The notes beneath the pieces are model-generated. The model had not been told where the DNA came from, did not search any database, and saw only the letters and a list, made by a program, of their open reading frames with translations. A DNA stretch of 64,000 nucleotides, taken from a virus. Positions 1 to 49,700 of the stretch are shown one piece after another; the stretch's first letter is position 1; each line of letters begins with the position of its first letter. The position numbers and the translations under genes are program-made. The DNA lies in the IMG/VR virus record IMGVR_UViG_3300047471_000729, positions 28,967 to 92,966 of that record. One strand, written 5' to 3'.

Positions 1-1811
1 TTGGACAGACCAATAACGGCTGGTTCTATACCGGAATTAACTCGCCAGCTTACCCGACTAGCTTTGGTGGTCTCGCAATTTCATGGAACTTTAACGTAGG
101 ACAGGGTGACGTAGATTTCTGGAATTGTTACACCAGTGGTAGCGGTTACACTTCATTCTTTTGGTATCAACTGACGACTGCTGGCTCAGCAGCAACAAAA
201 GTGATGCAGGTTGGTCCAAGCGGTCTTCTGGTTCCATCTACGTTTCTAAAAACCGGTGGTGGGGCGAGCTACCGCATGTCGCCCAACGCCAACAACACCG
301 GCATCGGCTCGTTTTGGTACACCGACACCAGCACCATGTACTTGTTGCTGACCGCGAATAATGACGCTTGGGGTAGCTTCAACGGGCTGCGTCCTTTCGC
401 GGTGGACCTCGCCACTGGCGTCGCGACATTCGGTCACCGGGTGACATTCAACCAAGGCGTGACGATCAGCGGTATCGGCCTCAACGCCTTGACTGTGACT
501 GGCTGGAACATCGTCCTGCAAAACAGTGCGTCCAACAATTACATCATGGCGCAGAACTCCGGCGGTTCCAACGTCAAGATATACGATGACGGCAACAGCC
601 ACATCGAAGCTAGTGCCCAGCTTTGGATTAACAACGCCACCGGAGCTTATACTCAGATCGGCGGCGGGATGACTGTTGCCGGTGCGGTGCAAATCAACGG
701 CGCCTCCAACACAAACGGAAACGCCACCTGTCAGGGGAACATCTACACCAACAGCATCGTGATGAACAACACTTGCTTACTGTATGGCAGGGACACTGCC
801 GGAACTCAGCAGTGGTTGATCGGATGTTGGAACGATAACACTATCTATGTCGGTGACAATTCCCGCACATTGCATCTGCGCGGCTCAGTAAACGTATTCG
901 ATAACCAAGTTCAATGCCCCACCATCACTGTTGGGGGCCTCCTTTGGCAGAACTACAACAGCGGCTGGTGGTGGACCGGAAGCCCGATCCACACCGACAG
1001 CGCGGTTCAGGCTGGTTTATGGATAACCGCCGGAACTGACATCAGTGCTGGCGGTCAGCTCAGTTGCAGCGGCAATTTGAACGTCAGTGGGACATCGTAT
1101 TTGAATGGGAATCAGACCCGCGTTCACGGCACCGATGCCAACGATAGCCTTACCGTCACCTGTTCCGACTATAGCAGGTTTCTCACTATCAAACCCCAAT
1201 CTCCCCAGAATAACTGGTGTCAGATGGGCTACTATTGTGGTGGCGCCGGGTGGGGAACCCTCGAAATAGTCGGGCAGCTTTACTGCGACGGCTCGATGCA
1301 TTGCGGCGATCTAACCGCCACCGGCTGGATTTACGGTGGTGGCAACGGAGGAGCGCAAATTAGATGTTGGGCGGGTGATTGGGGCGCGATGTCCTACGCC
1401 ATGAGCGGCGGCTACTTTGAGATTAGCCCGGATCAAGGCGTGTCCGGTTTCTACTTTCCCAATGCAGGAAACTGGTCCGACGCACGACTGAAGCTCAACA
1501 TCCGCGACAGCGAGATTGATGCCCTGGCGGTGCTTGGCAGGATACCGGTGCGCGCCTTTGAATGGAACGATCACGGTCGCAAGCTAATGCCCTATCGGGA
1601 CAGATCAGTAACATGCGGCCTCGTCGCGCAGGAAGTAGAGGAGCTAATACCCAGCGCGGTAGACATCCCGCCCCTTATCGGTGACGACATGAAGGCCATC
1701 CTTTATGAGCAGTTCCACCCCTACTATATCCGCGCTATCCAGCAACTAAAGGCAGAAAATGATGAGTTAATGGAAAGATTAACTAGGTTGGAGCAATCAA
1801 TTGTCCATTAA
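1..1811 (+). CDS. Tail fibre with C-terminal S74 chaperone domain (5' end outside window)
   Basis: The reading frame is open from the first bases, so the gene begins upstream. The visible part (about 600 residues) is Gly/Asn/Ser/Thr-rich beta-structured fibre sequence with short repeats such as V-x-G-G and L-x-V-x-G. The last ~110 residues match the intramolecular chaperone of endosialidase-type fibres (Peptidase_S74): WSDARLK, a basic-aromatic segment (FEWNDHGRK), GLVAQEVEELIP and a C-terminal coiled coil. In this family the domain drives trimerisation and is then usually released autocatalytically at the Ser of the SDARLK-like motif. It probably forms a host-receptor fibre. The gene looks GC-richer than the next fibre gene. 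The stop overlaps the start of the following paralogue. Confidence 0.88.
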   Translation, partial: GQTNNGWFYTGINSPAYPTSFGGLAISWNFNVGQGDVDFWNCYTSGSGYTSFFWYQLTTAGSAATKVMQVGPSGLLVPSTFLKTGGGASYRMSPNANNTGIGSFWYTDTSTMYLLLTANNDAWGSFNGLRPFAVDLATGVATFGHRVTFNQGVTISGIGLNALTVTGWNIVLQNSASNNYIMAQNSGGSNVKIYDDGNSHIEASAQLWINNATGAYTQIGGGMTVAGAVQINGASNTNGNATCQGNIYTNSIVMNNTCLLYGRDTAGTQQWLIGCWNDNTIYVGDNSRTLHLRGSVNVFDNQVQCPTITVGGLLWQNYNSGWWWTGSPIHTDSAVQAGLWITAGTDISAGGQLSCSGNLNVSGTSYLNGNQTRVHGTDANDSLTVTCSDYSRFLTIKPQSPQNNWCQMGYYCGGAGWGTLEIVGQLYCDGSMHCGDLTATGWIYGGGNGGAQIRCWAGDWGAMSYAMSGGYFEISPDQGVSGFYFPNAGNWSDARLKLNIRDSEIDALAVLGRIPVRAFEWNDHGRKLMPYRDRSVTCGLVAQEVEELIPSAVDIPPLIGDDMKAILYEQFHPYYIRAIQQLKAENDELMERLTRLEQSIVH

Positions 1812-4593
1812 CTTTCCTAATACCCCTCAACCGGGGGATGAGTGGACTGATTCTGGTGCGTCTTGGACGTGGGATGGAGCCAAGTGGGAAGCAACTACCT
1901 TTGCTAATGATGGTCCTTACCTGCCACTAGCTGGTGGTATGATGGCAGGTATGTTGACTTTGTTTCATACTGCACCAACTGCTGCCTATCATGCGACACC
2001 AAAAAATTACGTTGATTTGTTTGCCCCACTTAATAGTCCTATTCTTACTGGTAATCCAACAGGGCCTACCAGGCCGGTCGGTGATAACAGTGCCAGCCTT
2101 GCTACTACAGCCTTTGTCAGCTCGTACGCACCATTAGCTTCGCCCATCTTTATCGGCAACCCACGAGCGCCTACGCCGGCTTTAGGCGATAATACGACCA
2201 CTATCCCAACGACAGCCTGGGTTAAGTCACAGGGATATGGTACTGCATTGGCGTTTCTGCCGTTGACTGGTGGGACTTTAACTGGATTTCTATATATATC
2301 CACAGGTGGATCACCTGTACACGGTTCTACAGCGGCAGGGTTTGGTGCTACACGTTGGAGTTTTGCTGTAGCTCCTAGTGATGAAATTAGTACCGGAACA
2401 ATTGATTATCGTGGTTTCGACACTGGAGCACTCAGTATTATTGGTGCAGGGACGGATGGTAGCAATCGTCGGATTCGTCTCTGGGACAATGTGTTGGTAA
2501 GTAATACTTTAACTGTTGGCGGTGGAGGTATATCGGCTGCAAATACGATTGCAAGCACCGGTGGCAATGCGATCATTACTTGGACGGATCGGACCAGTGG
2601 AGTGACATGGGGATGGTATGCTTCTGGCGGTTTGTGTCGATTGTGGGATGCCAATATTGGTGACATGCTCTCAATGTCCAATACTGGTAATCTGACACAT
2701 ATTGGTAACTATCACTATTTCTCTAACAGTGGTGGAAATGTTAATAGTTCAGGTGGTAATTTTATCTATTCTGATCCAAACTGGACGATATTCCATATAG
2801 GCACTGGTAATCAAGGAGTTCAGGTTCAAGATACTAATGGTAATGCTCGTCACTTATTTTATAGTGGTGGTAATGCTTATCATGGAGGTCCTCTTAGCAT
2901 ACAAGGTAATAATGCAGTCGATAGTCTACTTATCTATAGGAGTGGTGGTACTGCTTATATGACGTTTAAGCCTGAGACTGGTGGTAACTGGTCTCAGATT
3001 GGTTACTACGGATCAAGTTTTGGCTGGGGTGGTATTGAATTCCCGGGTCCGGTACAGTTTGATTCTGGCTTCACCACGTTAGGTAACCTTCAAGCCAATG
3101 GGTATGTGGTTACTAACAATTTATATCTGTGGCAAAGTTACATCTTTTTTATGGGTCAGACTAGCGCTGGACCCAATCACTGGGCTAACAATACAGATAT
3201 GGGGTTCCGTTTAGGATCAGGGAATGGCACCTTCTATTTTCAGAATGTCAATGCTGCCAATAACTGTTTTATTGGTTCAGGTGGTGACATCTATGGTGCA
3301 ACACTTCGAACATGGGGTGGTGGTGACTGGGGTGCAAGTACAGGTTTTGCATCTTTTTCCCAGCATATCTGGCGCTTTGCGATAAGTGGGGGTGATGGAG
3401 GTGCATCGGGTACAGTTAGTTACCGCGTTTACGATTCCACCGCACTTTGTATTGTTGGGGCAGATAGTGGAGGGGTTCGACATGTTCATTTATGGGATGA
3501 TGTAGTTATAGATCGTAATTTACAAGTCAATGGTGGGAATATCTATTTACCAAATAGTTCAGGAACCGGCGTAAATATTGTTAATGCAGGTGGTAATTGG
3601 TTGCATGTCTTTGATGATGGAAATGCTCATCTCGAAACTAACACCAGACTTTGGGTCAATCAGCAAACTGGTACTGATGTTTGGTTTGGTGGACCAGTTA
3701 TTACAAATAGCAACTATTTTGTTTGGGTAAATGGTAGTGCAGGTATTGGTTCCGGTCAAGGTCCTTGCATGTATGGAGACAATAACTGGATTATTGCCAA
3801 GTTGGGTAGTGGGAATTCGGGATTTGCTGTCGCAGATTGGTATGCCAATTGGAATTTTCGAGTAGACTCTGCTGGATCAGTTAGTTGTGCGAATGTTACT
3901 GTTAGTGGAAGTCTCTTTGTCGGGGGATTACAGATTTATAACAACGGCGGCTGGGTATTTGTTGCCAATTCCCTACAGGCCGGTGGCTTGTATTCACGCG
4001 GCGATATCTGGAACGCGGGGAGCATTAATTCCGGCAATCAACTGAACTGTCCTAACGCCTGCACCGCTGGTTATCTTCACAGTACCAGTGATGTTAAGGC
4101 AAATGGCTGGTTCACCAGTGGCATCGGTAATGGTGGCGCTCAAGTTAGATGTTGGGCGGGTGATTGGGGCGCAATGTCCTTCGCTATCAGCAACCAGTAT
4201 TTCGAGATCAGCCCAGACCAAGGGCAATCGGGCTTTTACTATGCCCCGGCTGGTAATTGGTCGGATGCACGACTGAAATATAATATTCGAGATACTGAAG
4301 TTGATGCTCTAGCTGTCATCTGTGCAACACCTGTCCGTCGATTTGAATGGAACGAACGGGGACGCAAATTGATGCCTAATTCTGGATCGGACGTACTGTG
4401 TGGTTTCGTCGCGCAAGAGATTGAGGAAGTAATATCCATTGCAGTAGATGCCGTTCCCCTTCTAGGCGGTGGTATGAAACGTGTCGTTGATGAACATCTC
4501 ACACCATATCTTTTCCGTGCGATCCAACAGTTGACTAAACGAATTGCAGTGTTGGAGGATCGGCTTGCTTCTACAGGTAATACAACGCTATAA
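1801..4593 (+). CDS. Tail fibre, second S74-domain paralogue
   Basis: This 930-residue fibre starts at a TTG that overlaps the previous stop by 11 bases, with a weak GGTTGGAG ribosome site upstream. The N-terminus resembles phage-attachment segments (DEWTDSGASWTWDG, then the collagen-like LPLAGGxMxGxLTL seen in many fibres). The centre is a long beta-repeat shaft. The C-terminus carries WSDARLKYNIRD, FEWNERGRK, CGFVAQEIEEV and a coiled coil, the S74 chaperone. The last ~150 residues are closely similar to those of the preceding gene, including a 28-nt identical DNA block (1360-1387 and 4145-4172). The body is AT-rich while roughly 3950-4250 is GC-richer, pointing to exchange of a 3' module. 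Confidence 0.88.
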   Translation: MSINFPNTPQPGDEWTDSGASWTWDGAKWEATTFANDGPYLPLAGGMMAGMLTLFHTAPTAAYHATPKNYVDLFAPLNSPILTGNPTGPTRPVGDNSASLATTAFVSSYAPLASPIFIGNPRAPTPALGDNTTTIPTTAWVKSQGYGTALAFLPLTGGTLTGFLYISTGGSPVHGSTAAGFGATRWSFAVAPSDEISTGTIDYRGFDTGALSIIGAGTDGSNRRIRLWDNVLVSNTLTVGGGGISAANTIASTGGNAIITWTDRTSGVTWGWYASGGLCRLWDANIGDMLSMSNTGNLTHIGNYHYFSNSGGNVNSSGGNFIYSDPNWTIFHIGTGNQGVQVQDTNGNARHLFYSGGNAYHGGPLSIQGNNAVDSLLIYRSGGTAYMTFKPETGGNWSQIGYYGSSFGWGGIEFPGPVQFDSGFTTLGNLQANGYVVTNNLYLWQSYIFFMGQTSAGPNHWANNTDMGFRLGSGNGTFYFQNVNAANNCFIGSGGDIYGATLRTWGGGDWGASTGFASFSQHIWRFAISGGDGGASGTVSYRVYDSTALCIVGADSGGVRHVHLWDDVVIDRNLQVNGGNIYLPNSSGTGVNIVNAGGNWLHVFDDGNAHLETNTRLWVNQQTGTDVWFGGPVITNSNYFVWVNGSAGIGSGQGPCMYGDNNWIIAKLGSGNSGFAVADWYANWNFRVDSAGSVSCANVTVSGSLFVGGLQIYNNGGWVFVANSLQAGGLYSRGDIWNAGSINSGNQLNCPNACTAGYLHSTSDVKANGWFTSGIGNGGAQVRCWAGDWGAMSFAISNQYFEISPDQGQSGFYYAPAGNWSDARLKYNIRDTEVDALAVICATPVRRFEWNERGRKLMPNSGSDVLCGFVAQEIEEVISIAVDAVPLLGGGMKRVVDEHLTPYLFRAIQQLTKRIAVLEDRLASTGNTTL

Positions 4594-4594
4594 T
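4589..4594 (+). promoter_or_regulatory. Possible -10 element (TATAAT) before small tail genes
   Basis: TATAAT preceded by ACGC sits at the stop codon of the fibre gene, about 45 bases before the next start. No -35 box is visible. It resembles the CGTATAAT sites at 37303, 50663 and 58937, though here the triplet before it is CGC. Weakly supported. Confidence 0.3.
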
Positions 4595-4635
4595 TTGGGT
4601 TATTATCACCACACTACAACCTTAGGGGTTCGGCT

Positions 4636-5217
4636 ATGACTGATTATGCAGATGTTCCAACTATAACAACTCTTCATCAGGAAAGTCAAAACATTCAGAA
4701 TGCTCTGAATCTACTTAATGCTGGCGGTACTATGTCGAATTTCACAGTCGCGCCCCCACCTCCGCCTACTGACGGATCTGGTATACCGTCCAGTACTATG
4801 TATATGTCGGTTAATATTTCGGTACCGGGTCCGATCTCACCTGATATGACTCAGGCACTTATTGATACATTAACAACTAGACAGGCTGAAGTAGTATCGG
4901 AGTTAGCCGACTTAGGTGTTGGTCCCCCGCCACCACCAATAACTGACCCGCCTGTAAACACGACGGCTCCCGTTGTCACACAGGTCGATACTAATCTTAA
5001 TTCTACAACAGGTGTTTGGGACAATACACCAACTAGCTATACGTATTCTTGGCTTAGGGAAGATGGAATAATGGTCGGAACTCTATCGACTTATCCTATT
5101 GCCTTTGCTGATGTTGATCTCTCGTTTACCTGTACTGTTACAGCAACAAATAATATTGGAACGACACAAGGTCCACCATCAAATAGCGTAGTTGTAGTCA
5201 GTCCACCCGCACCCTAG
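4636..5217 (+). CDS. Fibre-associated protein with Ig-like domain
   Basis: 193 residues, ATG start after TTAGGGG. The N-terminal ~85 residues (PTITTLHQESQNIQNALNLL, then a T-V-x-P-P-P-P linker, then a SPDMTQALIDTLTTRQAEV helix) are similar to the 113-residue protein encoded at 12298, which also directly follows an S74 fibre. After a second proline hinge, the C-terminal ~85 residues look like a bacterial/phage Ig-like surface domain (W-D-N-T-P-x-S-Y-T-Y-S-W-L-R, then C-T-V-T-A-T-N). Such domains decorate tail and capsid surfaces and bind carbohydrate weakly. Probably a small accessory or assembly factor of the fibre; the precise role is unknown. Confidence 0.7.
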   Translation: MTDYADVPTITTLHQESQNIQNALNLLNAGGTMSNFTVAPPPPPTDGSGIPSSTMYMSVNISVPGPISPDMTQALIDTLTTRQAEVVSELADLGVGPPPPPITDPPVNTTAPVVTQVDTNLNSTTGVWDNTPTSYTYSWLREDGIMVGTLSTYPIAFADVDLSFTCTVTATNNIGTTQGPPSNSVVVVSPPAP

Positions 5218-5228
5218 GAGGATGTATA

Positions 5229-5468
5229 ATGGGTTCGCCTATGCCTAGTAGTGGTACACCTGTTCCTGCAACTCAACCGTTTACCATTAGATTGGAAGCG
5301 CAACAGTGGAATGCTGTATTGGCTGCGCTTGGTGAAGCACCCTATCGGGTTTCTGCACCATTGATCCAAGCGATTGGTGAACAACTTCAGACCCAGGCGA
5401 ATCAGGCAGGTACCTCTGCCCCAAATGGGCTTGATGTTGATATTGTGACATCTTCTCCGCCCAACTAA
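5229..5468 (+). CDS. Small hypothetical tail-region protein
   Basis: 79 residues, ATG preceded by a strong TAGGAGG. Proline/serine-rich ends flank an amphipathic helix pair (AQQWNAVLAALGEAPYRV and SAPLIQAIGEQLQTQANQ). I do not recognise the family. Its stop overlaps the ATG of the baseplate gene, so it is translationally coupled to the baseplate module. Confidence 0.65.
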   Translation: MGSPMPSSGTPVPATQPFTIRLEAQQWNAVLAALGEAPYRVSAPLIQAIGEQLQTQANQAGTSAPNGLDVDIVTSSPPN

Positions 5469-5965
5469 TGAGATACCGCAAGCTTGACCAAAACGGCGAT
5501 ATGCAGTTTGGTCATGGGGCTGGTGACTTTTGGAAAGACCAACCGGAAGCGGTTGGTCAATCCATCAAGACTCGGCTGCTCTTGTTTGCTGGCGAGTGGT
5601 ATCTTGATACTTCTGCGGGAACTCCCTGGGGTGGGTTCCCACTAAACCAGTCTGTTGTTCAGCAAGGTAAGATACTGTCTGAGCATACACAGTTCTCAAG
5701 GGATGCGGCAATTCGTGAGAGAATTATTACAACTGATGGAGTGATGACATTAAACAATTATGGAAGCGCGTTTAATGCTAATTCCCGCGCGTTTTCAGTT
5801 GGCGCACAAGTAGATACAGTTTATGGTGGTCCTATTTCTGTAATTATCTCTCAAGTATTAGGTGCACCACCGGTTATTCAGTTTGGAGTCCCTCTTGCTC
5901 AAGAGAGACGTCCTGTAGCTCCCGTTTATAGATCCTTGCCAAGACCATCAACAAGGGCTAGGTAG
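5468..5965 (+). CDS. Baseplate protein, phage Mu gp46-like
   Basis: 165 residues, starting at the ATG overlapping the previous stop (AATGA). The pattern RxLDxNGDMxFG, then GQSIKTRLLLFxGEWYLDTSAGTPW, is characteristic of the gp46-like baseplate component that sits next to the J/gp47 protein in contractile-tailed phages. The C-terminal tail is proline/arginine-rich. Directly upstream of the J-like gene, as expected for this module. The protein is thought to help join the baseplate wedge to the hub; that role is taken from the family. Confidence 0.8.
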   Translation: MRYRKLDQNGDMQFGHGAGDFWKDQPEAVGQSIKTRLLLFAGEWYLDTSAGTPWGGFPLNQSVVQQGKILSEHTQFSRDAAIRERIITTDGVMTLNNYGSAFNANSRAFSVGAQVDTVYGGPISVIISQVLGAPPVIQFGVPLAQERRPVAPVYRSLPRPSTRAR

Positions 5966-5967
5966 AA

Positions 5968-7158
5968 ATGGTTGCTCCCGTTGCAGTAATTGACTCGAAT
6001 GGTATAACGATACCACTATATACTGATGTGCTTGCTTATCTGCAAGAACAATATCAATTGATTTATGGTAGTGATGTCAATCTGGATCCTGATACTCAAG
6101 ATGGTCAGTGGATTGCGGTAACCGCATCAGCAATTCATGATGCCAATCAGACTATGGTTGCAGCTTATCTATCCTATAGTCCAACCTTTGCACAAGGTGT
6201 AGGTCTATCAAGTATTGTAAAGATTAATGGTATTCGACGTCAGCGTCCCAGTGTTAGCAATGTAATAGTGCAATGTGTTGGTGTTGCAGGTACCGGTATT
6301 GGTGGTGGTATTGTAGGTGACCAGTTTAATCTTGGTACTCAGTGGGTTTTACCACCCGAGGTTACTATTCCACCGACTGGCTTAATTGAAGTAACAGCGA
6401 CTTCTAATGTTGAAGGAGCAGTTACAGCAGATGTGAATACATTAACACACATTCTGACACCAATACCTGGTTGGCAGACAGTTACTAATCCAAGTGCTGC
6501 GGTACCTGGTCAACCAATTGAGACTGATGCAGCATTACGCAGAAGACAAACAATCTCGGTAGCAAATCCTTCACAAACAGTGGTTGTTGGTATTCAAGGT
6601 GCGATTGAGGAATTAGCAGGTGTCGTCCGGGTTATGGTCTATGAAAATCCAACTGCTGTTACTGACGTAAATGGTACACCACCCTATTCAATGGCTATAG
6701 CTGTTGAGGGTGGGGACATTAACGATATTGCCAATGCTATAGCGTTAAGAAAGACACCAGGCAGCCCAACCTATGGTACCACTTCGGTTATGGTCTTTGA
6801 TAGTCGTGGTATACCTTCGGTGATTAATTTCTTTGAGTTGACTATAGTGCCTGTAACGGTTGGTATTACACTGAATGCCCTTCCTGGATTTACTTCGGTA
6901 ATTGAAACGGAAATCATTGATAGTGTTATCGCCTATATGAATTCTCTGCCTATTGGTTATGATTCCTATCAGTCTAAACTAGTAGCTGCTTGTCAGGTGA
7001 CTGAGCCTGATGGATTAACTTATGATGTTACTTCAGTTAGACAATCAAGAGATGGGAACCCTCTTGCTATCCAAGATGTGACAATTTCTTATATTGAAGC
7101 GGCAACCGCTGATCCCACTACGGTTACAATAACCGTCAATCCTCAGCTTAGGAGGTAA
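5968..7158 (+). CDS. Baseplate J-like protein (Mu gp47 / P2 gpJ family)
   Basis: 396 residues, the usual size for this family. Near the N-terminus it has the typical IYGSDVNLDPDTQDGQWIA segment. The middle has the repetitive beta region (GTGIGGGIVGDQF, ATSNVEGAVTADVNTLT) followed by PGQPIETDAALRRRQ, a hallmark of the J family. The C-terminal portion contains the conserved VRVMVYENPT and the alpha/beta module ending in VTITV. It builds the peripheral wedge of the contractile baseplate, identifying this phage as a myovirus morphologically. Preceded by the gp46-like protein with a 2-base gap. Confidence 0.9.
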   Translation: MVAPVAVIDSNGITIPLYTDVLAYLQEQYQLIYGSDVNLDPDTQDGQWIAVTASAIHDANQTMVAAYLSYSPTFAQGVGLSSIVKINGIRRQRPSVSNVIVQCVGVAGTGIGGGIVGDQFNLGTQWVLPPEVTIPPTGLIEVTATSNVEGAVTADVNTLTHILTPIPGWQTVTNPSAAVPGQPIETDAALRRRQTISVANPSQTVVVGIQGAIEELAGVVRVMVYENPTAVTDVNGTPPYSMAIAVEGGDINDIANAIALRKTPGSPTYGTTSVMVFDSRGIPSVINFFELTIVPVTVGITLNALPGFTSVIETEIIDSVIAYMNSLPIGYDSYQSKLVAACQVTEPDGLTYDVTSVRQSRDGNPLAIQDVTISYIEAATADPTTVTITVNPQLRR

Positions 7159-7160
7159 TC

Positions 7161-7820
7161 ATGACTGGACTAACCGATCGCACGGCTCAAGGGCTCCTCG
7201 GTCACATCACTGGAAAGTTAGCAATCTTTCCTATACCAACAGTCTTTATTGGTTTATTTACAGCTGTTGGTAGTGATGCGGGGGTCGGGTTTACCGAAGT
7301 TGCCGGTGGGGCTTATGCTAGGTCGCCAACTACTGCAGCAACTTGGAATTCGGCAGCCGGGTCAGGACCTAGTGCAATCTCGAATGCGAACCCAATCACT
7401 TTTGCCATCTCTACGGCAGACTGGGGGACAGTCACTGCCTTTGGCTTGTATGATGCAGTTACTGCGGGGAATCTACTTGCCTGGGATTACTTTGGTAGCT
7501 ATACCTGGTTGCCAACACAGATTAGTGCAGCCTCGCCTGCGATCCTGTCGGTATCACGACATGGTTTCCTTACTGGTGACAGTGTTGTCTATTCTGCAGA
7601 ATATGGCGGGAGTCCCCCGACTTTCCTGCAAGGTAACTTTACAGGACTTCTTGCTGTTACTAACCCACTGACAGATTCTTTCTCTGTCACATCCACAGGT
7701 TCGGCAGTCAACACTAATACCTCTGGTAATGGAATGGTTCGTAAGGTTGCTTCGCAGCACATTGGTGTTGGTGTACAACCAACATTCCCATCGGGATCCT
7801 TGCTCATCACCTCTGCGTAA
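7161..7820 (+). CDS. Baseplate/tail-tip associated protein
   Basis: 219 residues, ATG with a consensus TAGGAGG. Residues ~1-120 show a pattern common in phage tail proteins (GLLGHITGK, FIGLFTAVGSDAG, TEVAGGAYAR, ITFxxSTADWGTVTAFGLYD). A small inserted beta domain follows (SRHGFLTGDSVVY ... DSFSVTS ... GNGMVRKV) of the type found as an insertion in many phage structural proteins. The chain closes with QPTFPSGSLLITSA, continuing the first domain. It lies between the J-like and DUF2612-like genes, so it is likely a distal baseplate component. Function inferred from context and pattern only. Confidence 0.7.
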   Translation: MTGLTDRTAQGLLGHITGKLAIFPIPTVFIGLFTAVGSDAGVGFTEVAGGAYARSPTTAATWNSAAGSGPSAISNANPITFAISTADWGTVTAFGLYDAVTAGNLLAWDYFGSYTWLPTQISAASPAILSVSRHGFLTGDSVVYSAEYGGSPPTFLQGNFTGLLAVTNPLTDSFSVTSTGSAVNTNTSGNGMVRKVASQHIGVGVQPTFPSGSLLITSA

Positions 7821-7848: not shown

Positions 7849-9618
7849 ATGGATCTCTCTGGTCAGATAACGACCACATGCACAGCCAGGAATGATTATT
7901 CTGGCCAGATTCCTAACATAGCGTATACTCTATCTGGTCAAATAACCACTACAATCTCGGCTAGAAATGATTATTATGGTGGTGGTCCTCTTTACATATC
8001 CGGTCAGATCACCACAACTACTACAGCTAGTAATCTCTATACTATTGGGCCAGCAAATCTAACAGGTAGGATTGTAACTGCCGCTAAAGCTTGGGGTGGT
8101 TTTACTGCTCCTTCTGGTACTGTCTTATCCGGTCGGATCACAACTATTAGTAGTGCTAATAGTTGGATTATTACTGGTCCACTCAATTTAACTGGTCAGA
8201 TTTCTTCAACCAGTGCAGTTACAGGATACTTCTTTCAAGGATCATTTAATTTAACCGGTCGAATTACATCTACTAATCGTCTTCAAACTAGTGCCTTTAT
8301 TCTAGGTCAGTTTTCTGGTCGCATTACTTCCACTAGCTCGGCTAGTGGATCACCATTTGTAATGGGTAGTCTTTCTGGTACAATAACCTCTACCACTACA
8401 ACGAGTTCCTGGGCTAGGTTTGGTTTCCCCTTATCTGGTCAGATTACTTCTATTAGTTCAGCCTCTACTCAATTCCAACCTACGGTTCTATTATACGGTA
8501 CGATTAGTACGAGCGTTTCGACACTTGCTTCTTGGCCACCTTTTGTTACTTTATCTGGTCAGATTACTTCGACCTCATCCGTTCGAACGGATGGCGTATT
8601 CCCAGTAATAGCATTTGTTGCTGGTACAATTACTACAACTGTATCAGCAGGACTATGGGGTAATTTTCCGGAGTTTCTATCTGGTGTAATACTTTCGACA
8701 AGCTCAGCTTATGCAGAGACCGTACTTGATACTTATGTATCCGGTCAGATCACCACTATTGCTACAGCTCAAAGCATTCCACCACAACCGATAATAAATT
8801 TGATTGGTGGTAAGATCACCACCACAGTTACTGCCTCGTTTGGTGATCAGGTTGGGGCTGAGTTAGTACCACCACGTCCGCCTTATCCTGCTCCTTTCCC
8901 AACACAACCCGTAGAACATTATCTAGAATATATAACTTCTGAGCATAATCAGAAGCCAAAATACATGGATACTATTGCCATAAGCGTTGATACTTGGGTT
9001 CAGGATCAGTTAATATCGGCAGGATTACCAGGGTTATTTGATATTGATTACGCTGTTGGGGAGCAACTGGACTTTGTTGGGCAGTGGATTGGTAAGACTC
9101 GATGGATTCAAGTACCTAATGCCTTCTTTAGTTGGGACGAGGAAGGACTAGGTTGGAACCAAGCGAATTGGAAAGGCCCAGCAGATTCTGATGATCATCT
9201 TCAGCGTCTTGATGACTATCATTATCGTATACTGCTATTTGCGGCTATAGCTGCCAATCACTGGGATGGTTCTGTACCATCAGCTTATGCTGCCTGGGAT
9301 GCGTTGTTTCTCTATAGTGGTGTAACAGTGGTTATTCAAGACTACGGTAATATGTCTATGATGTATGGGGTATTGTGGGCGACTGAACCGGATACCGTTC
9401 TGATCTCTATGCTTATAAACGGACATATGGATCTAAAGCCTGAAGGCGTTAAAATATTAGATTATATCTTTCAAGTCGAGCCTAATGTCGCATTCTTTGG
9501 CTTTGATGCCCAGAATGACACAATAGCTGGATGGGAAGCTGGATCTTGGGGTATCCTTGTGCCGCCTGGCTCGGGGTACGACCCGCTGCAACCAACAGGG
9601 ATTACACCCAATGAGTGA
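7849..9618 (+). CDS. DUF2612-like baseplate protein with repeat-rich N-terminal extension
   Basis: 589 residues. Residues ~1-330 consist of about 15 degenerate repeats of a unit containing (L)SGxITTTxxA, spaced roughly 17-35 residues, extremely Ser/Thr/Gly-rich. From about residue 350 the sequence changes to a globular domain (YLEYITSEHNQKPKYMDTI, IDYAVGEQLDFVGQWIGKTR, DEEGLGWNQ, DDYHYRILLFAAIAANHWDG) matching DUF2612 proteins that sit after baseplate J genes. The repeat part is unusual for DUF2612 and may form a beta-solenoid or spacer exposed at the baseplate. The stop overlaps the start of the next fibre gene by 8 bases. Confidence 0.78.
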   Translation: MDLSGQITTTCTARNDYSGQIPNIAYTLSGQITTTISARNDYYGGGPLYISGQITTTTTASNLYTIGPANLTGRIVTAAKAWGGFTAPSGTVLSGRITTISSANSWIITGPLNLTGQISSTSAVTGYFFQGSFNLTGRITSTNRLQTSAFILGQFSGRITSTSSASGSPFVMGSLSGTITSTTTTSSWARFGFPLSGQITSISSASTQFQPTVLLYGTISTSVSTLASWPPFVTLSGQITSTSSVRTDGVFPVIAFVAGTITTTVSAGLWGNFPEFLSGVILSTSSAYAETVLDTYVSGQITTIATAQSIPPQPIINLIGGKITTTVTASFGDQVGAELVPPRPPYPAPFPTQPVEHYLEYITSEHNQKPKYMDTIAISVDTWVQDQLISAGLPGLFDIDYAVGEQLDFVGQWIGKTRWIQVPNAFFSWDEEGLGWNQANWKGPADSDDHLQRLDDYHYRILLFAAIAANHWDGSVPSAYAAWDALFLYSGVTVVIQDYGNMSMMYGVLWATEPDTVLISMLINGHMDLKPEGVKILDYIFQVEPNVAFFGFDAQNDTIAGWEAGSWGILVPPGSGYDPLQPTGITPNE

Positions 9619-12298
9619 TGATAAAAATTCTCCAACCGAACAAGACGATCTTGTTCCTGTTCCATATGCAGGTGTAGTTGGGACTGATTTTCTAACGTTT
9701 GCTGTTGGGATTGGGGCCAATGTTGAAGCCCAGTCTGATTACTTAGCTGACCCTCAGCGTCCATCAGGAAACCTTCCTGGTATTGCGCGGTCAAATTTCA
9801 ATAACAAGGCAATAAGGCAAGGTACCTTTGTTGCTCATAGCCTTTGTCTCTGGGTCAGTCAGCAGATACAGGCATACATCCCTGACGACGGAGATGACAT
9901 TCACTGGATTGCCGAGTTTAGTCAGGCTCTCGCTGACTTTATCATGATCACTATTCCGCCACCGCCTAATCTTGGTGCATATTTGCCACTAGCCGGTGGC
10001 ACAATGACTGGTAATATTTCCTTTGTAGCAGGTATTAGCACGATTCTGGCTAATAACACTTGGTACTATGGTAAGGATACTACTGGTCAGGCTCGTGGTC
10101 TTATCGTTAGGGGTGCTGATGATAACGTATTCATCAATGATGGTTCCGCAACTTACGTTCATATTAACGGAACACCACTTCTCAATAACAACTTTATCTA
10201 CTCCGGCAGAGACACTTTAGGGAACACTCAGAGGGTTATTGGCTTCCTGAGCGATAACGCTGTGCATGTTGGTGGTTCAGGTAATATCTGGCTGGATAGC
10301 ATTGGTGGTTCAGTATACGCTGCAGGTAATATCGCTATTCCGAATAACAGCTACTACTACTGTCAAGATACAGCGGCAAACGAGAGAGCGGTACTGGGAA
10401 TTAACACAGCCAATTCCCTAATGATTGGTAGTGGTGGTGTAGGTTCAACCGACATCTATGCGGGTGGGGCTAATACTATCAATCTTCACAATAATACACT
10501 TGCCCTTGGTCAGCTTCAGACCAATGGTTATTTCTACTGTCAGGGTGGTGAGCGAATCTATATCCCTGGTGGTAATGATCCGCTGCAAATCTACGCGGAC
10601 AATGGGTACTACGCGCGCCTGCATTATGTGGTCGGTGGTACCCGAGACTGGAGCGAGGGCTGCCTTAGCAATGGTCACTGGGCTGTTGCTGATGAGAGTG
10701 CACACGTGGTCCGGATCGAGATTGATTTCAATGGGCAGTTCCACTGCTACAACAACGTGCAGATTGATGGTAGTTTAAATATTAGTGGTAGTGTGGGTGT
10801 TGGTAATCTTACAGTATACGGTGCTGCGCAAGTCAACGGTGGTATGAATGTCTATGGTGGGTTGACCGTTCAGACTGGCAACTTTAACGTAAATGGTGCC
10901 TCAGGATTTGGTGGTGGTGTGACCATGTACAATGGTCTCAACGTCGCCGGTGGTGGTACCACAATGGGATCACTCACTTGTGGCAACTTTGGAGCGGGAG
11001 GCTCAGGTCAGATCAATGGTGGTCTGACAGTCTATAATGGTCTCAATGTTGCGAGTGGGAATGCTAGTGTTGCGGGTACGTTGACAGTTGGTGGTGTCAC
11101 TTCGATTGGTTCCACCCAAGTTAATGGTAACCTCACCGTAACCAACACTCTTCAAGTCAACAACTGGGCCAGCATCTATAATGGCCTGACTATTCAGAGT
11201 GGCAACTTTGGTTGTGCTGGATCGGGGCAGGTCAATGGTGGTCTGACAGTCTATAACGGAATCAATATTGCCTCTGGTGGTGGTTATATTGCCGGTAGTT
11301 GGACCAGTGGTGGAAGTATGACTTGTGGGAATTTCTTGCAGGTCAATGGTGGGGCACAGATCAACGGTGGTCTCACCCTATACAATAGTATCTATGTTGT
11401 ATCGGGTGGTGGCACGATTAACAGTTACTTGAATGTCAATGGTACCACCGGTATTAGTGGCTACTGTCAAATCAATGGTTCGGCAGTCATCTATAATGGT
11501 TTGACTGTTGCTAGTGGTGATTGCAATGTTTCTGGTAATGTGAGTGGTGCTTCCTTCTCAACTGGTGGTAATGCTTATTTTGGTGGTCTTATCCACGTCG
11601 GTCAGATTCAGGTAGGTGGTCTGGCACCTATGTATGATAATGGTGGTAATGTCTTAAATATCAGTAGTTCTGTCCAGATCCATGGCTCGCTTACAACAGA
11701 CTACTTCAGAAGCTTGGGTGCGGTCGATTGTGATCACGTCTACTCCTACAATTACTTACACGCTGACAACTATCTAGATGTTGATGGCTGGGCATATCTG
11801 CGTAGCGGTATACAAATATGGGGCGACGTATTCCAATATGCTGCTAATTTCCAAACTTATGGTCACATCTTCCCCGTTCCTAACGGGTCGCAGGAATGCG
11901 GAACGTGTCAGCACCAATGGCGTAACGTGTTTTCGTACAACTTTGCGACTGAAAGCGACCCCGATAAGAAACGCGATATTGCACCAATTCCGGAAGTTTG
12001 CCTTAGCCTGGTTAACGCCATCAAGCCGTCGACTTTCAAATGGCGAAACGCGGGTGAATTTGACGATCATGGTCGGCCAATGACTGAAGACCACCCATAT
12101 GCAAATACCCATTGGGGGTTTATGCAGCCCGATGTCATGAGCGTTATGAACGACCGTGAGCGGAAACTGCCAGTTTTTGGTGGTGCCTACGAAGACATGG
12201 GAGTAAAGTTACTTCAGTACAATGAGCTTGTCGCGGTGTTGTGGCAGGCGGTGAGAGAACTTTCGTCTGAAGTTGAAGCCTTGAAGAGGAGAGCATAA
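9611..12298 (+). CDS. Tail fibre, third S74-type fibre
   Basis: 895 residues from the ATG at 9611, chosen because it overlaps the previous stop (AATGAGTGA) and begins MSDDKNSPTEQDD; an upstream in-frame ATG at 9557 lies deep inside the preceding gene. Residues ~20-130 form an attachment head (DYLADPQRPSGNLPGIARSN). It is followed by LPLAGGTMTGN and a very regular shaft of repeats of the type VNGGLTVYNGLNVASG, about a dozen copies. The C-terminus has a divergent S74 domain (FATESDPDKKRDIAPI, FKWRNAG, HWGFMQPDVMSVM) and ends in a coiled coil. The SDARLK motif reads SDPDKKRDI here. Confidence 0.87.
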   Translation: MSDDKNSPTEQDDLVPVPYAGVVGTDFLTFAVGIGANVEAQSDYLADPQRPSGNLPGIARSNFNNKAIRQGTFVAHSLCLWVSQQIQAYIPDDGDDIHWIAEFSQALADFIMITIPPPPNLGAYLPLAGGTMTGNISFVAGISTILANNTWYYGKDTTGQARGLIVRGADDNVFINDGSATYVHINGTPLLNNNFIYSGRDTLGNTQRVIGFLSDNAVHVGGSGNIWLDSIGGSVYAAGNIAIPNNSYYYCQDTAANERAVLGINTANSLMIGSGGVGSTDIYAGGANTINLHNNTLALGQLQTNGYFYCQGGERIYIPGGNDPLQIYADNGYYARLHYVVGGTRDWSEGCLSNGHWAVADESAHVVRIEIDFNGQFHCYNNVQIDGSLNISGSVGVGNLTVYGAAQVNGGMNVYGGLTVQTGNFNVNGASGFGGGVTMYNGLNVAGGGTTMGSLTCGNFGAGGSGQINGGLTVYNGLNVASGNASVAGTLTVGGVTSIGSTQVNGNLTVTNTLQVNNWASIYNGLTIQSGNFGCAGSGQVNGGLTVYNGINIASGGGYIAGSWTSGGSMTCGNFLQVNGGAQINGGLTLYNSIYVVSGGGTINSYLNVNGTTGISGYCQINGSAVIYNGLTVASGDCNVSGNVSGASFSTGGNAYFGGLIHVGQIQVGGLAPMYDNGGNVLNISSSVQIHGSLTTDYFRSLGAVDCDHVYSYNYLHADNYLDVDGWAYLRSGIQIWGDVFQYAANFQTYGHIFPVPNGSQECGTCQHQWRNVFSYNFATESDPDKKRDIAPIPEVCLSLVNAIKPSTFKWRNAGEFDDHGRPMTEDHPYANTHWGFMQPDVMSVMNDRERKLPVFGGAYEDMGVKLLQYNELVAVLWQAVRELSSEVEALKRRA

Positions 12299-12639
12299 TG
12301 CCTACTATTGCACAAATTCCAGATGCTCATGCACTGCACACCCAATTGGATGCAGTCAACAAAGCGGTTGCTTTGCTTCAATCTGGAGCACCGGTTACCA
12401 ATTTGACGGTGACCCCTGCTACTGATTTAACAATTCCCACGATGGCTCCTCCTCTACCTGCAGCAGGAGCTATGGAAGCACCGCCAGTAGTGACACCTAC
12501 GGTATATCAGCCACCAGTGACTATCATTCTTGATCCACCAATCACTGATGCTGCGACGATTGATACCTTGATTACTGCGCTTCAGGTGCGCGCGGGCGAG
12601 ATCACGCAAACTCTAATCGACAATGGGTATTCGTCCTAG
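12298..12639 (+). CDS. Small fibre-associated protein
   Basis: 113 residues, ATG overlapping the fibre stop as TAATG after GGAGAGCA. Its N-terminus (IPDAHALHTQLDAVNKAVALLQSGAPVTNLTVTP) and C-terminal helix (DAATIDTLITALQVRAGEITQTLIDNG) align with the first half of the protein at 4636, but it lacks the Ig-like domain. Both directly follow an S74 fibre gene, so they are likely matched accessory or assembly partners of their fibres. A bidirectional terminator follows. Confidence 0.7.
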   Translation: MPTIAQIPDAHALHTQLDAVNKAVALLQSGAPVTNLTVTPATDLTIPTMAPPLPAAGAMEAPPVVTPTVYQPPVTIILDPPITDAATIDTLITALQVRAGEITQTLIDNGYSS

Positions 12640-46908: not shown

Positions 46909-48144
46909 ATGCCAATACCGAGGTTATTCGGGGATAATGAACCTCCAGCTAAAGGTGGGCTGGGTAAACCTCTGTCATGTGTATCTTGTGGTCTGTATAA
47001 TGGACCAATCAACCCAAAGATGCCTCCCTTCGGGGATTTCAAGAAACAGATTATGGTTATTGGTGAAGGACCCGGTGAACAAGAGGATCGAAAAGGTAGA
47101 CCATTCCAGGGACCAACCGGTAATGCTATCAAAGAAGCATTGAGTGATCTTGGTATTGATCTATTTCGTGATTGTATAAATTTGAATGCAGTTAATTGTC
47201 GACCACCTAGTAATAGAGCACCATCTGTCCACGAGATTGCGTGTTGTAGAGCGCGGATAGTGTCCCCCGCTATAGCTGCGCATAGTCCTCGATTAATGCT
47301 GCTACTGGGCGGGAGCGCCGTTACTAGTGTCCTTGGAAGTGTGCTACCGGAAGCGCAGGACTCGAGCATTGGAAAGTGGCGTGGTTTTCACATCCCTCTA
47401 CCGGAATTAGGTGCCTGGATTTGCCCAACGTATCATCCCAGTTATGTTTCCAGGTCCAGTGATAGGCCTGAAGTAGAGACAGTTTGGAAGAATGATTTGA
47501 AACAAGCTATTGACTTGCTAAATGTATCTGTACCCAGAGTAGAGATTTTACGTAATAGGATTGTTCTTCTTCATGGTGAAGAAGAGATTCTTAGAGCATT
47601 GAATAGGGTAAAAGTACGAAAAGGTCTGTTCTCATTTGATTATGAGACTGTAGGATTAAGTGCAAAGTTACACAGTATAGTTTGTGCGTCTTTTTGTCAG
47701 TCACCTGAGCGTGCGTATGCGTTTATGTTTACTGATGCTTCCGAGGCTGTTCGTCAAGCTTGGCGGGATATTCTAGTAAACGAAGATATTGGTAAGATCT
47801 CACATAATCTATCATTTGAATATGAGTGGAGCCGCTTCCATTTTGATATTGATGAGATAAATTGGGCTTGGGATAGTATGCTTGCAGCACATGTTATTGA
47901 TAATCGTACGGGTATTTGTGGGTTAAAGTTTCAATCTTTTATCAATTTTGGTGTTGTAGGGTATGAGAATTTAATCGATCCCTATTTAAAGTCTGTAACA
48001 CCGCGAGATCCCACTGCGCCAAACCGTATACTAGAGTTTATAGAGAGGCATGGTGAAGATGAATGCCTAATCTATTGCGGGATTGACTCCCTTCTCGCCT
48101 ATAGGTTAACCATGAAGCAAATGAAAGAGATTGAAGATGGCTGA
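46909..48144 (+). CDS. Uracil-DNA glycosylase-like domain fused to 3'-5' exonuclease
   Basis: 411 residues. Residues 1-200 match family 4/5-type uracil-DNA glycosylases: SCVSCGLY near the N-terminus, IMVIGEGPGEQEDRKGRPFQGPTG (motif 1), CINLNAVNCRPPSNRAP and CPTYHPSYV (His motif). Residues ~225-405 match a DnaQ/PolI-type proofreading exonuclease: FSFDYETVGL (Exo I), ISHNLSFEYEW (Exo II), YCGIDSLLAYRL (Exo III). The matching polymerase domain is in a separate gene at 48321. The enzyme may combine uracil or modified-base surveillance with proofreading. Confidence 0.85.
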   Translation: MPIPRLFGDNEPPAKGGLGKPLSCVSCGLYNGPINPKMPPFGDFKKQIMVIGEGPGEQEDRKGRPFQGPTGNAIKEALSDLGIDLFRDCINLNAVNCRPPSNRAPSVHEIACCRARIVSPAIAAHSPRLMLLLGGSAVTSVLGSVLPEAQDSSIGKWRGFHIPLPELGAWICPTYHPSYVSRSSDRPEVETVWKNDLKQAIDLLNVSVPRVEILRNRIVLLHGEEEILRALNRVKVRKGLFSFDYETVGLSAKLHSIVCASFCQSPERAYAFMFTDASEAVRQAWRDILVNEDIGKISHNLSFEYEWSRFHFDIDEINWAWDSMLAAHVIDNRTGICGLKFQSFINFGVVGYENLIDPYLKSVTPRDPTAPNRILEFIERHGEDECLIYCGIDSLLAYRLTMKQMKEIEDG

Positions 48145-48343
48145 TGTTCACTTTGATTTTGGTATTTGGAATCAAAAGGCAGGTTGGATAGGAAAGTGCC
48201 CTAAACATGGTCCTCAGCAGAGTGGTCTTTCTATTTCCCTCCCACCCCTAATTAGAAATTATTGTGGTGAATGTTTAATTGAATTGTTAGATCAGTTTTG
48301 TCATCCTCTGGAGTACGTCAATGAAAATGATGGAAGCCTATAA
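48137..48343 (+). CDS. Small cysteine-containing protein
   Basis: 68 residues, overlapping both the exonuclease and polymerase genes. IGKCPKHGPQQSG ... NYCGECLIELLD gives a C-x2-H and C-x2-C pair compatible with a zinc ribbon. Not recognised. It separates the exonuclease and polymerase modules. Confidence 0.6.
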   Translation: MADVHFDFGIWNQKAGWIGKCPKHGPQQSGLSISLPPLIRNYCGECLIELLDQFCHPLEYVNENDGSL

Positions 48344-49700
48344 GCTGCTCCAACGAGGGGCTGAAGCTCTTACCCTTGTAGAGGAAGCGGGGATTTGTAT
48401 TGATCTTGTTTATGTTAGGGAGAAACTGGCTTGGGTTGAGCAAAAGTTAAAGCAGTCAGAATTACGACTAAAGAGCAGTGAGTTAGGCATTGCTTGGCTT
48501 GGTCGCTATGGTGATGCAATGAAGATTCAAAGTGTCCCTCAATTGAGACACATCCTTTATCAGGATATGCGAGCTAAACCATTCAAGATGTCTGAGGGTG
48601 GTGAAGAGAGTACAAACGAGGAATCCCTTCGACAGACTAATGTTGATGGTGTTGTCCATTTGTTGCGGATGCGGAGGCTGAAAAAGGCTAAAGATGTTTT
48701 GAAAGTGTTGATTAGATCTACAGTCAATGGCAAGATCCACCCATCTTTTCTGTTGCATACAGTATCAACGTATAGATCGTCTAGTGCTGATCCCAACCTG
48801 CAGAATATACCAGCCCGAGATAAAGAAATTATGGACATCTGTAGAAGGGCGTTTCTTCCCAGCCCTGGTCATATTTTGATGGAGATTGACTTTTCAGGTA
48901 TTGAAGTCGGTATTGCAGCAACTTATCACAAAGATCCTGTAATGATTAAGTACTTACAGGATGAGACAAGTGATATGCACGGGGATATGGCAGGTGAGAT
49001 TTTCTTGCTGCCCAAATTGAATACCCCTCTCAAAGAGATGGAAGGTGGGTATACATTAAGGCAGTCAGCAAAGAACGGGTTTGTCTTCCCGCAATTCTAC
49101 GGTGACTATTACGAGCCCTGCGCGCTTAATGTCGCTTGTTCCTGGTGCAAGCTACCAAAGGATGGAATGTGGAAGCCTAATCACGGTGTTGTATTTAATG
49201 GTAAACCCATAGGGGAACATTTGATATCTAAAGACATTGATTCGTTTAGTGTATTTGTTGATCACATGGAACGGGTACAAAACAACTTTTGGGGCAAGCG
49301 TTTCAAAGTATATAATGCTTGGAGAAAGACTTGGCATTCTAAGTACCAAAAGACCGGTGAATTTGAAATGAAGACCGGGTTTAGGGTCTCCGGTGTTATG
49401 GAAAAGAATCAAGTAATCAATTTCCCTGTACAAGGGGCCGCATTCCATTGTTTGTTATGGTCTTTGATTGAAATGGTAAAGCAGTTAAAGGGTTGGCAGA
49501 GTAAGGTGGTTGGTGAGATACACGACAGTATGCTGATAGATGCACATCCAGACGAGATCTCTGATATTATTCTAATGGCGCAGCAAATCTGCACGGTCGA
49601 TCTACCAAACCACTGGTCTTGGATAGATATACCTATGCGTATCGAAGTTGCTGCCTCAGAAATAGATGGTAACTGGGCTGAAATGAAAGGTGCAGCATGA
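48321..49700 (+). CDS. DNA polymerase, family A polymerase domain
   Basis: 459 residues, ATG behind GGAG. Lacks an exonuclease domain. Polymerase motifs: MEIDFSGIEVGIAATYH (motif A), RQSAKNGFVFPQFYG (motif B; R-x3-K-x6-YG), and VVGEIHDSMLID (motif C, H-D-S instead of H-D-E). TYRSSSADPNLQNIPARD is also typical of PolA. Its proofreading partner is the UDG-exonuclease at 46909, so holoenzyme function needs association of separate chains. The stop overlaps the clamp-loader start. Confidence 0.92.
   Translation: MKMMEAYKLLQRGAEALTLVEEAGICIDLVYVREKLAWVEQKLKQSELRLKSSELGIAWLGRYGDAMKIQSVPQLRHILYQDMRAKPFKMSEGGEESTNEESLRQTNVDGVVHLLRMRRLKKAKDVLKVLIRSTVNGKIHPSFLLHTVSTYRSSSADPNLQNIPARDKEIMDICRRAFLPSPGHILMEIDFSGIEVGIAATYHKDPVMIKYLQDETSDMHGDMAGEIFLLPKLNTPLKEMEGGYTLRQSAKNGFVFPQFYGDYYEPCALNVACSWCKLPKDGMWKPNHGVVFNGKPIGEHLISKDIDSFSVFVDHMERVQNNFWGKRFKVYNAWRKTWHSKYQKTGEFEMKTGFRVSGVMEKNQVINFPVQGAAFHCLLWSLIEMVKQLKGWQSKVVGEIHDSMLIDAHPDEISDIILMAQQICTVDLPNHWSWIDIPMRIEVAASEIDGNWAEMKGAA

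Follow-up and report, generated by a model that had tools for sequence, protein, structure and literature searches.

A repeat array on a DUF2612 baseplate wedge protein as the probable rope of a bead-on-rope phage fibre

Introduction

The gene at 7849–9618 of the window (the whole 64,000-nucleotide stretch analysed here, positions 28,967 to 92,966 of virus record IMGVR_UViG_3300047471_000729) encodes a DUF2612 protein in which a long array of short repeats precedes the domain. The question raised by this locus is what such an array does on a baseplate protein. The original prediction was that it might be a surface-exposed fibre or a spacer. The idea of a fibre is retained here in a narrower form: the evidence favours neither a spacer nor a free-standing fibre but a rope that works together with the Gp80-like protein encoded at 7161–7820.

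The repeat array

7849–9618, plus strand: whole gene, rope, linker and DUF2612 baseplate wedge protein (ATG start, 589 aa)
7852–8860, plus strand: rope, 16 imperfect repeats of about 20–22 aa, consensus LSG(Q/R)ITTTSSA followed by a variable spacer
8861–8913 (approximate ends; about residues 345–355), plus strand: Pro-rich linker from the rope to the wedge domain, seen in the sequence
8920–9456, plus strand: DUF2612 domain (T4 gp7/XM1 gp17-like wedge), residues 358–536, Pfam E 6.7e-42, 143.9 bits against a cut-off of 23.5

Residues 1–345 of the 589-aa protein contain 16 copies of the motif [LVFIY][STAYGV]Gx[IV].., from residue 5 to residue 321, and the remainder contains none, while 10,000 shuffles gave 0.20 occurrences on average and 3 at most. 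The roughly fifteen imperfect SGxITTTxxA repeats first seen ahead of the domain are therefore real and number 16 by this count. They had been placed at 7849–8900; they do precede DUF2612, but the array ends near nucleotide 8860 and is followed by the Pro-rich linker, whose consensus in the alignment of the lineage is PLPPYPxPF. Successive units are spaced by 25, 22, 21, 22, 21, 21, 20, 20, 20, 20, 20, 22, 20, 20 and 22 residues. The autocorrelation is highest at lags 21, 22 and 20, a signal that none of 300 shuffles reached. The conserved L, G and I together with small residues fall within the first 12 positions of the repeat, and the rope as a whole is rich in Ser, Thr and Gly.

Tandem Repeats Finder gave a single 31-base row for the window DNA and did not report the array, which fits its divergence at the DNA level, as two units are on average 45% identical over an ungapped 60 nt. 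Searches of Pfam, PHROGs and the PDB with the window protein returned nothing significant across the repeats. By tblastn against named phages, the window rope had no match even at E 10 and the rope of locus L022 had two records at E 3, and the low-complexity filter may hide more in both cases. A DNA pattern of two GRITA units retrieved seven stretches, five of them from the window lineage; the stretch in L134 has no matching repeat ORF on its strand, and that in L137 encodes a protein with three GRITA units.

The wedge protein and its gene cluster

5468–5965, plus strand: baseplate wedge subunit (phrog_120, 1.6e-19)
5968–7158, plus strand: Baseplate J-like wedge protein (Pfam 9e-7; phrog_6 baseplate wedge subunit, 6.6e-50)
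9608–12298, plus strand: tail fibre with a C-terminal Peptidase_S74 chaperone, next gene downstream (phrog_11303, 2e-14; Pfam S74, 1.9e-5)

The gene order in the window is phrog_120 wedge subunit, J-like protein, Gp80-like protein, DUF2612 protein and S74 fibre. Judged from this order, the product of 5468–5965 is probably a sheath initiator like gp25 and XM1 gp15. The J-like protein is the counterpart of the DUF2612 partner in wedges of the (gp16)2-gp17 type.

A DUF2612 profile built from ten family members matched gp89 of 9zd7 in the PDB (E 1.5e-17), as well as gp17 of XM1 (7kh1, 9.4e-12), gp23 of Pam3 (7yfz, 6.2e-6) and gp024 of 9ndy (4.6e-4), the last three being chains named wedge proteins. 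These profile matches identify DUF2612 as a baseplate wedge domain of the T4 gp7 kind. The accessible part of the XM1 report likewise equates gp17 with T4 gp7, and describes six wedges, each with one gp17 and two gp16 (PMC10457771). XM1 gp17 has 242 aa, and its N-terminal helices lie within the core bundle in the same part of that report (PMC10457771), so it is without a rope. The gene arrangement differs as well: compared with the wedge genes of XM1, Pam3 and T4, the window has a bead gene between J and DUF2612.

A tail sheath gene (phrog_205, E 2.8e-116) is found in the same virus record (L324) upstream of the window, and PHROG matches place the hub, tail chaperone and tape measure upstream too; the Pfam sheath models PF04984 and PF17482 had no match in the search for contractile-tail genes. 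The record has 92,966 bases, and end repeats are not reported for it. The wedge-domain matches, the baseplate gene order and the upstream sheath gene together indicate, on sequence grounds, that the tail is contractile and that the repeats form the N-terminal part of one of its wedge proteins.

Other features of the window were seen in passing. Two large tandem ORFs at 201–4593, about 56% identical over 195 residues, look by eye like S74-type fibres, in addition to the one encoded at 9608–12298. The small proteins of 4636–5217 and 12298–12639 match the same place in locus L058 and are therefore probably paralogues that flank the baseplate cluster. Farther away, at 46909–49700, the DNA polymerase seems to be split into two ORFs 176 nt apart that match parts 479–827 and 833–1236 of phrog_17.

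The Gp80-like protein upstream

7161–7820, plus strand: Gp80-like bead protein, 219 aa (PF23140 at residues 4–109, Pfam E 1.5e-23, 84 bits against a cut-off of 27; phrog_240, 8e-15)

This gene is separated from the rope-wedge gene (7849–9618) by 28 nt. PF23140 is named by Pfam after the fibre I protein of podophage GP4. A Gp80 profile of 13 family members matched one PDB sequence, chain a of 8jou (140 aa, 10 chains, E 3.2e-23), which we take to be the GP4 tail structure; the window protein used alone found no PDB match. Zheng et al. in 2023 reportedly described five fibers I on GP4, each consisting of five gp80 dimers linked by an elongated rope protein.

As the window protein has 219 aa and the Pfam match stops at residue 109, it carries extra C-terminal sequence. 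Relative to beads of 128–140 aa, the extra sequence lies towards the C-terminus at 7500–7770 and possibly is an inserted small domain. In a Desulfofustis phage (L153:1716-4795), an apparent tandem pair of Gp80-like domains follows a protein with 14-residue repeats. If this doubled Gp80 is a fused dimer, it would be in line with a bead that is itself a dimer.

Rope and bead within the DUF2612 family

Viral contigs were scanned with the whole window protein (33 loci) and with an alignment of the DUF2612 domain (the best 80 of 289 relatives), and bacterial genomes added 25 DUF2612 loci. The three scans gave a comparison set of 92 distinct DUF2612 proteins. With the best 80 of 289 relatives among the sources, 27 of the 92 have at least 150 residues ahead of the domain and 65 have a shorter N-terminus, in agreement with the earlier remark that such an array is not associated with DUF2612. 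Window-type repeats make up 23 of the 27 long N-termini, so the repeat, when looked for in other proteins, is found in 23 distinct DUF2612 proteins of the lineage. The four others are L058, L034, L077 and L087. The long N-terminus of L087 is, by eye, probably a false early start. In L077 it consists of a Gly-rich stretch and Ala-rich repeats (also by eye), and in L034 it is of another kind; neither has a bead gene. The L034 protein (1998-5579) carries LamG, BNR-like and four PASTA stretches ahead of DUF2612, a large appendage on the same N-terminus.

A Gp80-like match ends 4–32 nt ahead of the start in all 23 distinct proteins with window-type repeats. No such match lies upstream of any of the 65 proteins with a short N-terminus, all of which have at least 700 nt of upstream sequence, and none of these 65 has a Gp80-like or phrog_3758 gene in the slot. 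The 23 repeat-bearing proteins form one clade, with near-identical members and, in one case, a truncated version of the window protein itself; the count of 23 out of 23, taken alone, could reflect shared descent.

Ropes in the lineage are about 200 to 451 residues long and hence differ in their number of repeats. In six pairs of relatives, the window itself not being among the pairs, the dN/dS of the rope was 0.17–0.41, compared with 0–0.15 for DUF2612 in the five of six pairs where it was computable. In these relatives purifying selection acts on the rope, less strongly than on DUF2612.

These values bear on whether the repeats are present in the mature protein at all. They would be missing from it after a late translation start or cleavage, and the accessible part of the JC1 report lists the bead gp53 as detected in virions and does not include the rope gp54 in its protein list (PMC9144972). 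As the rope frame is open throughout the array and its dN/dS in relatives is 0.17–0.41, translation starting after the repeats, the counter-case named in the original prediction, is not supported. The only in-frame start codons within residues 301–376 of the window protein are a TTG at 318, in the last repeat, and an ATG at 373, inside DUF2612, so that there is no good internal start. We regard the loss of the repeats from the mature protein as hardly credible.

A swapped rope and bead in L058

In L058:3393-5199 (IMGVR_UViG_3300047160_002980), both the rope and the bead are replaced by another pair. Its DUF2612 is 59% identical to that of the window over 217 residues. Its repeat, LxATExxDxAxF, recurs every 21 residues, and a phrog_3758 protein (E 1.1e-14) is encoded in the slot ahead of the DUF2612 gene. 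PF23140 has no match in the 69.9 kb L058 record, which is possibly incomplete, and one match in each of five other lineage records searched. Only this one coupled swap of rope and bead was seen in the lineage.

A further phrog_3758 gene was seen in L167 (IMGVR_UViG_3300036832_000786, 87405-95776). It is separate and distant from the Gp80 and rope-wedge locus L027 on the same contig and has no strong 21-residue partner, the best z being 2.8.

Neighbours of bead genes in named phages and isolates

We compared 18 neighbourhoods from named phages or isolates, 15 around a Gp80-like gene and three around phrog_3758 (L140, L142 and L143); L142 also has a Gp80 gene. L154, which is without annotation, was left out of the count, and L160–L163 served only for rope alignment. 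These 18 loci encode 166 proteins of 100 residues or more; among them, self-similarity reached z of at least 5 in 8 of 16 at position +1 of the bead and in 3 of 14 at +2, one of the latter being a tail fibre in L150. The same threshold was reached by 2 of 18 proteins at −1, by one of the 18 beads themselves and by 3 of 100 proteins elsewhere.

The repeat neighbours of Gp80 have a lag peak of 20 in PVJ1, Lietuvens, C72C1, ctjtQ328, BcepMigl, PBC5, POI1126, Hocus and DC1, and peaks at 10 and 20 in phiM5 and Itty13. The weaker of these signals were reached by 2 of 300 shuffles for Lietuvens (self-alignment z 2.4), 7 of 300 for BcepMigl and 18 of 300 for Itty13. The repeat neighbours of phrog_3758 peak at lag 21 (L058, RHph_TM3_14A, ctvy9321 and P26059A). 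In BcepMigl, JC1, DC1, BcepIL02, CSP3 and Itty13, whose Gp80 proteins share 50–68% identity with the solved one, the repeat gene comes next. X1, Mvi-JY20 and ACP17 have Gp80-like genes with no rope visible alongside, the rope slot of L148 is taken by an endonuclease gene, and in L153 the doubled Gp80 comes after the 14-residue repeats.

The anchors of these repeats vary. In PVJ1 and Lietuvens, they stand ahead of a Mu-gp48-like domain (PF10076) in the gene order J, Gp80-like, rope-wedge, a layout like that of the window but with a different wedge family. In Hocus, whose bead is gp33, the repeats belong to gp32, a minor tail protein with a Gly-rich domain (PF21722). Free-standing repeat proteins adjoin Gp80-like genes in C72C1, phiM5, ctjtQ328, BcepMigl, Itty13, PBC5, POI1126 and DC1.

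The repeats might instead anchor or organise the downstream S74 tail fibre and have no business with Gp80. The fibre gene is directly next, a tblastn match to the window fibre, in some cases partial, lies downstream of the DUF2612 gene in 16 of 23 compared loci, and XM1 gp17 does carry tail spikes. In the accessible part of the XM1 report, however, the spikes are held by two other parts of gp17, residues 80–106 and the C-terminus, and not by its N-terminus (PMC10457771), and the repeat proteins of BcepMigl and Hocus are without DUF2612 and yet adjoin Gp80. Such a role in anchoring the fibre appears highly improbable.

Repeat period 20 with Gp80 and 21 with phrog_3758

Viral contigs were then scored for periodic proteins around both beads, with 79 loci from the best 80 of 562 relatives in the Gp80 alignment scan and 70 loci from the best 80 of 482 in the phrog_3758 scan. 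Up to three same-strand ORFs per side were taken, of at least 100 aa for Gp80 loci and at least 120 aa for phrog_3758 loci, proteins already seen were dropped, and lags from 10 to 40 were compared, the best of them being scored against shuffles. Loci inside each bead set are related, so the counts that follow are non-independent.

Among the best 80 of 562 Gp80 relatives, 48 of 79 loci have a lag-20 protein (z at least 6) within the next three ORFs. This threshold was reached by 45 of 76 proteins at +1 (40 at lag 20, two at lag 40 and one each at 15, 27 and 38), by 5 of 68 at +2 and by 3 of 56 at +3, the last two groups all at lag 20; upstream, none of 195 proteins reached even z of at least 4. 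Lag 21 was found at 0 of 79 of these loci with z of at least 6 and at one with z of at least 3.5.

Among the best 80 of 482 phrog_3758 relatives, lag 21 was found at 16 of 70 loci with z of at least 6 and at 26 of 70 with z of at least 3.5, and lag 20 at none of the 70 even at the lower threshold. Proteins with z of at least 6 numbered 12 of 54 at +1 (11 at lag 21), 8 of 49 at +2 (four at lag 24, two at 21, one each at 15 and 22) and 7 of 40 at +3 (three at lag 21, two at 23, one each at 15 and 22); lags 24, 23, 22, 15 and 39 also occur among these neighbours; upstream there were 3 of 131, all at lag 30. At z of at least 6, no lag-20 protein was present at 31 of 79 Gp80 loci (best 80 of 562) and no lag-21 protein at 54 of 70 phrog_3758 loci (best 80 of 482). 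The split between 20 for Gp80 and 21 for phrog_3758 is clean, and no family was matched by both beads in the Pfam and PHROG searches made.

This pattern has to be weighed against a bare flexible spacer or an adhesive wedge arm for which Gp80 is not needed, the two genes merely travelling together in an operon. The Ser/Thr/Gly-rich rope, free to vary between 200 and 451 aa and evolving faster than DUF2612, would suit such an arm, and so would the missing gp54 on the JC1 list, as far as that source is accessible (PMC9144972). A bare spacer leaves unexplained the bead-specific periods, the one-sided neighbourhood in other phages and the coupled swap in L058, and we consider it unlikely.

Structure predictions and rope profiles

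AlphaFold gave a pLDDT of 47 for the full 589-aa protein (20-row alignment), and a pLDDT of 66 with a pTM of 0.53 for about eight repeats (22-row alignment). The latter model has one strand of 11–16 residues per repeat, with seven strands listed. Structure prediction, proposed at the outset as a check, thus yields a regular strand at low confidence and no reliable fold match: Foldseek with the repeat model found nothing at E of 0.001 or less in the PDB and BFVD. Its weak list includes bactofilin and the FapC and CsgA fibrils, FapC being the top row (E 0.33, probability 0.01). Curli CsgA and FapC consist of beta-prone repeats of about 20 residues; their likeness to the window rope is one of weak structural matches, with no sequence relation shown.

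The strand per repeat and these names would be in line with an array that folds by itself, as a beta-solenoid or a curli/FapC-like stack forming a stiff spike. The pLDDT of 66, the pTM of 0.53 and the lack of a PDB or BFVD match at that threshold argue against such a spike, which would also leave the coupling to Gp80 unexplained. We think it very unlikely.

The profile of the window-type repeat shows no detectable homology to seven other Gp80-linked ropes (hhalign probability 0.2%). A profile of GP4-relative ropes found no convincing chain in the PDB, the best hit (E 0.019) being an unrelated protein. As the rope profiles of the two lineages do not align, what they have in common is the period and the neighbourhood.

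Proposed bead-on-rope fibre

We consider it likely that the repeats are the rope of a GP4-like bead-on-rope fibre, fused to a contractile-tail wedge and decorated with Gp80-like beads. Each repeat, a beta-prone strand (LSGxITTTSSA) plus a loop, would dock a single protomer of the Gp80-like protein (7161–7820). Our guess, drawn from the low-confidence AlphaFold strand in each repeat, is that the rope strand may be added to the bead. The beads, probably dimers, would line up along the rope into an extended, chain-like fibre. Fusion of the rope through the Pro-rich linker to the N-terminus of DUF2612 would give one arm per wedge and, with wedges assembled like those of XM1, six arms per virion.

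We infer one repeat per protomer from the DC1 rope, in which about 11 units (counted by eye) are close to the ten protomers of 8jou (10 chains). At this ratio, an arm of the window phage would hold 16 beads, or 8 dimers, amounting to about 96 per virion with six wedges, and the ropes of 200–451 residues in relatives would hold about 10–22 beads. The arms would extend the reach or the avidity for the host surface, alongside the S74-type fibres. Speaking against this fibre are the JC1 virion list, which as far as accessible has the bead and not the rope (PMC9144972), and the annotation of phiM5, where the bead is noted as "detected in phage particle proteome" and the next gene has no such note.

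Discussion

The nearest known arrangement is fibre I of GP4, in which, like in the window, a Gp80-family protein (PF23140) is encoded beside a protein with repeats of about 20 residues. The window system differs in that the Gp80-like protein is longer (219 aa compared with 140 aa for the solved Gp80) and the rope is fused to a contractile-tail baseplate wedge; this fusion would take the place of a GP4-type gp77 fibre-tail adaptor. A rope or chain-like fibre on a DUF2612 protein was not found in the open-licence literature searched. Host contact by a DUF2612 protein has a precedent in GP075 of Pseudomonas phage K8, a mutant of which gains binding to core oligosaccharide; GP075 has the same domain as the window protein, and a rope is not described for it in the accessible part of the report (PMC9887876).

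A broader reading, to which we give about an even chance, is that fibres of the bead-on-rope kind form a general, modular group of appendages on the tails of podo-, sipho- and myophages. Two unrelated bead families would read unrelated ropes by repeat length (20 for Gp80, 21 for phrog_3758), the period and not the sequence being conserved. Ropes would be free or fused to any anchor, such as a DUF2612 wedge, a Mu-gp48-like wedge or a Gly-rich minor tail protein, and the repeat number would set the length.

An unexplained repeat array thereby becomes a testable device, a protein ruler that would set the number of beads on a phage tail. A fibre class known from a podophage may join a contractile-tail baseplate through gene fusion. 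If the rule of 20 and 21 holds, many phage proteins now called 'hypothetical' or 'head' (Gp80/phrog_240, phrog_3758 and their repeat neighbours) could be re-annotated as beads and ropes, and fibre length would be readable from sequence.
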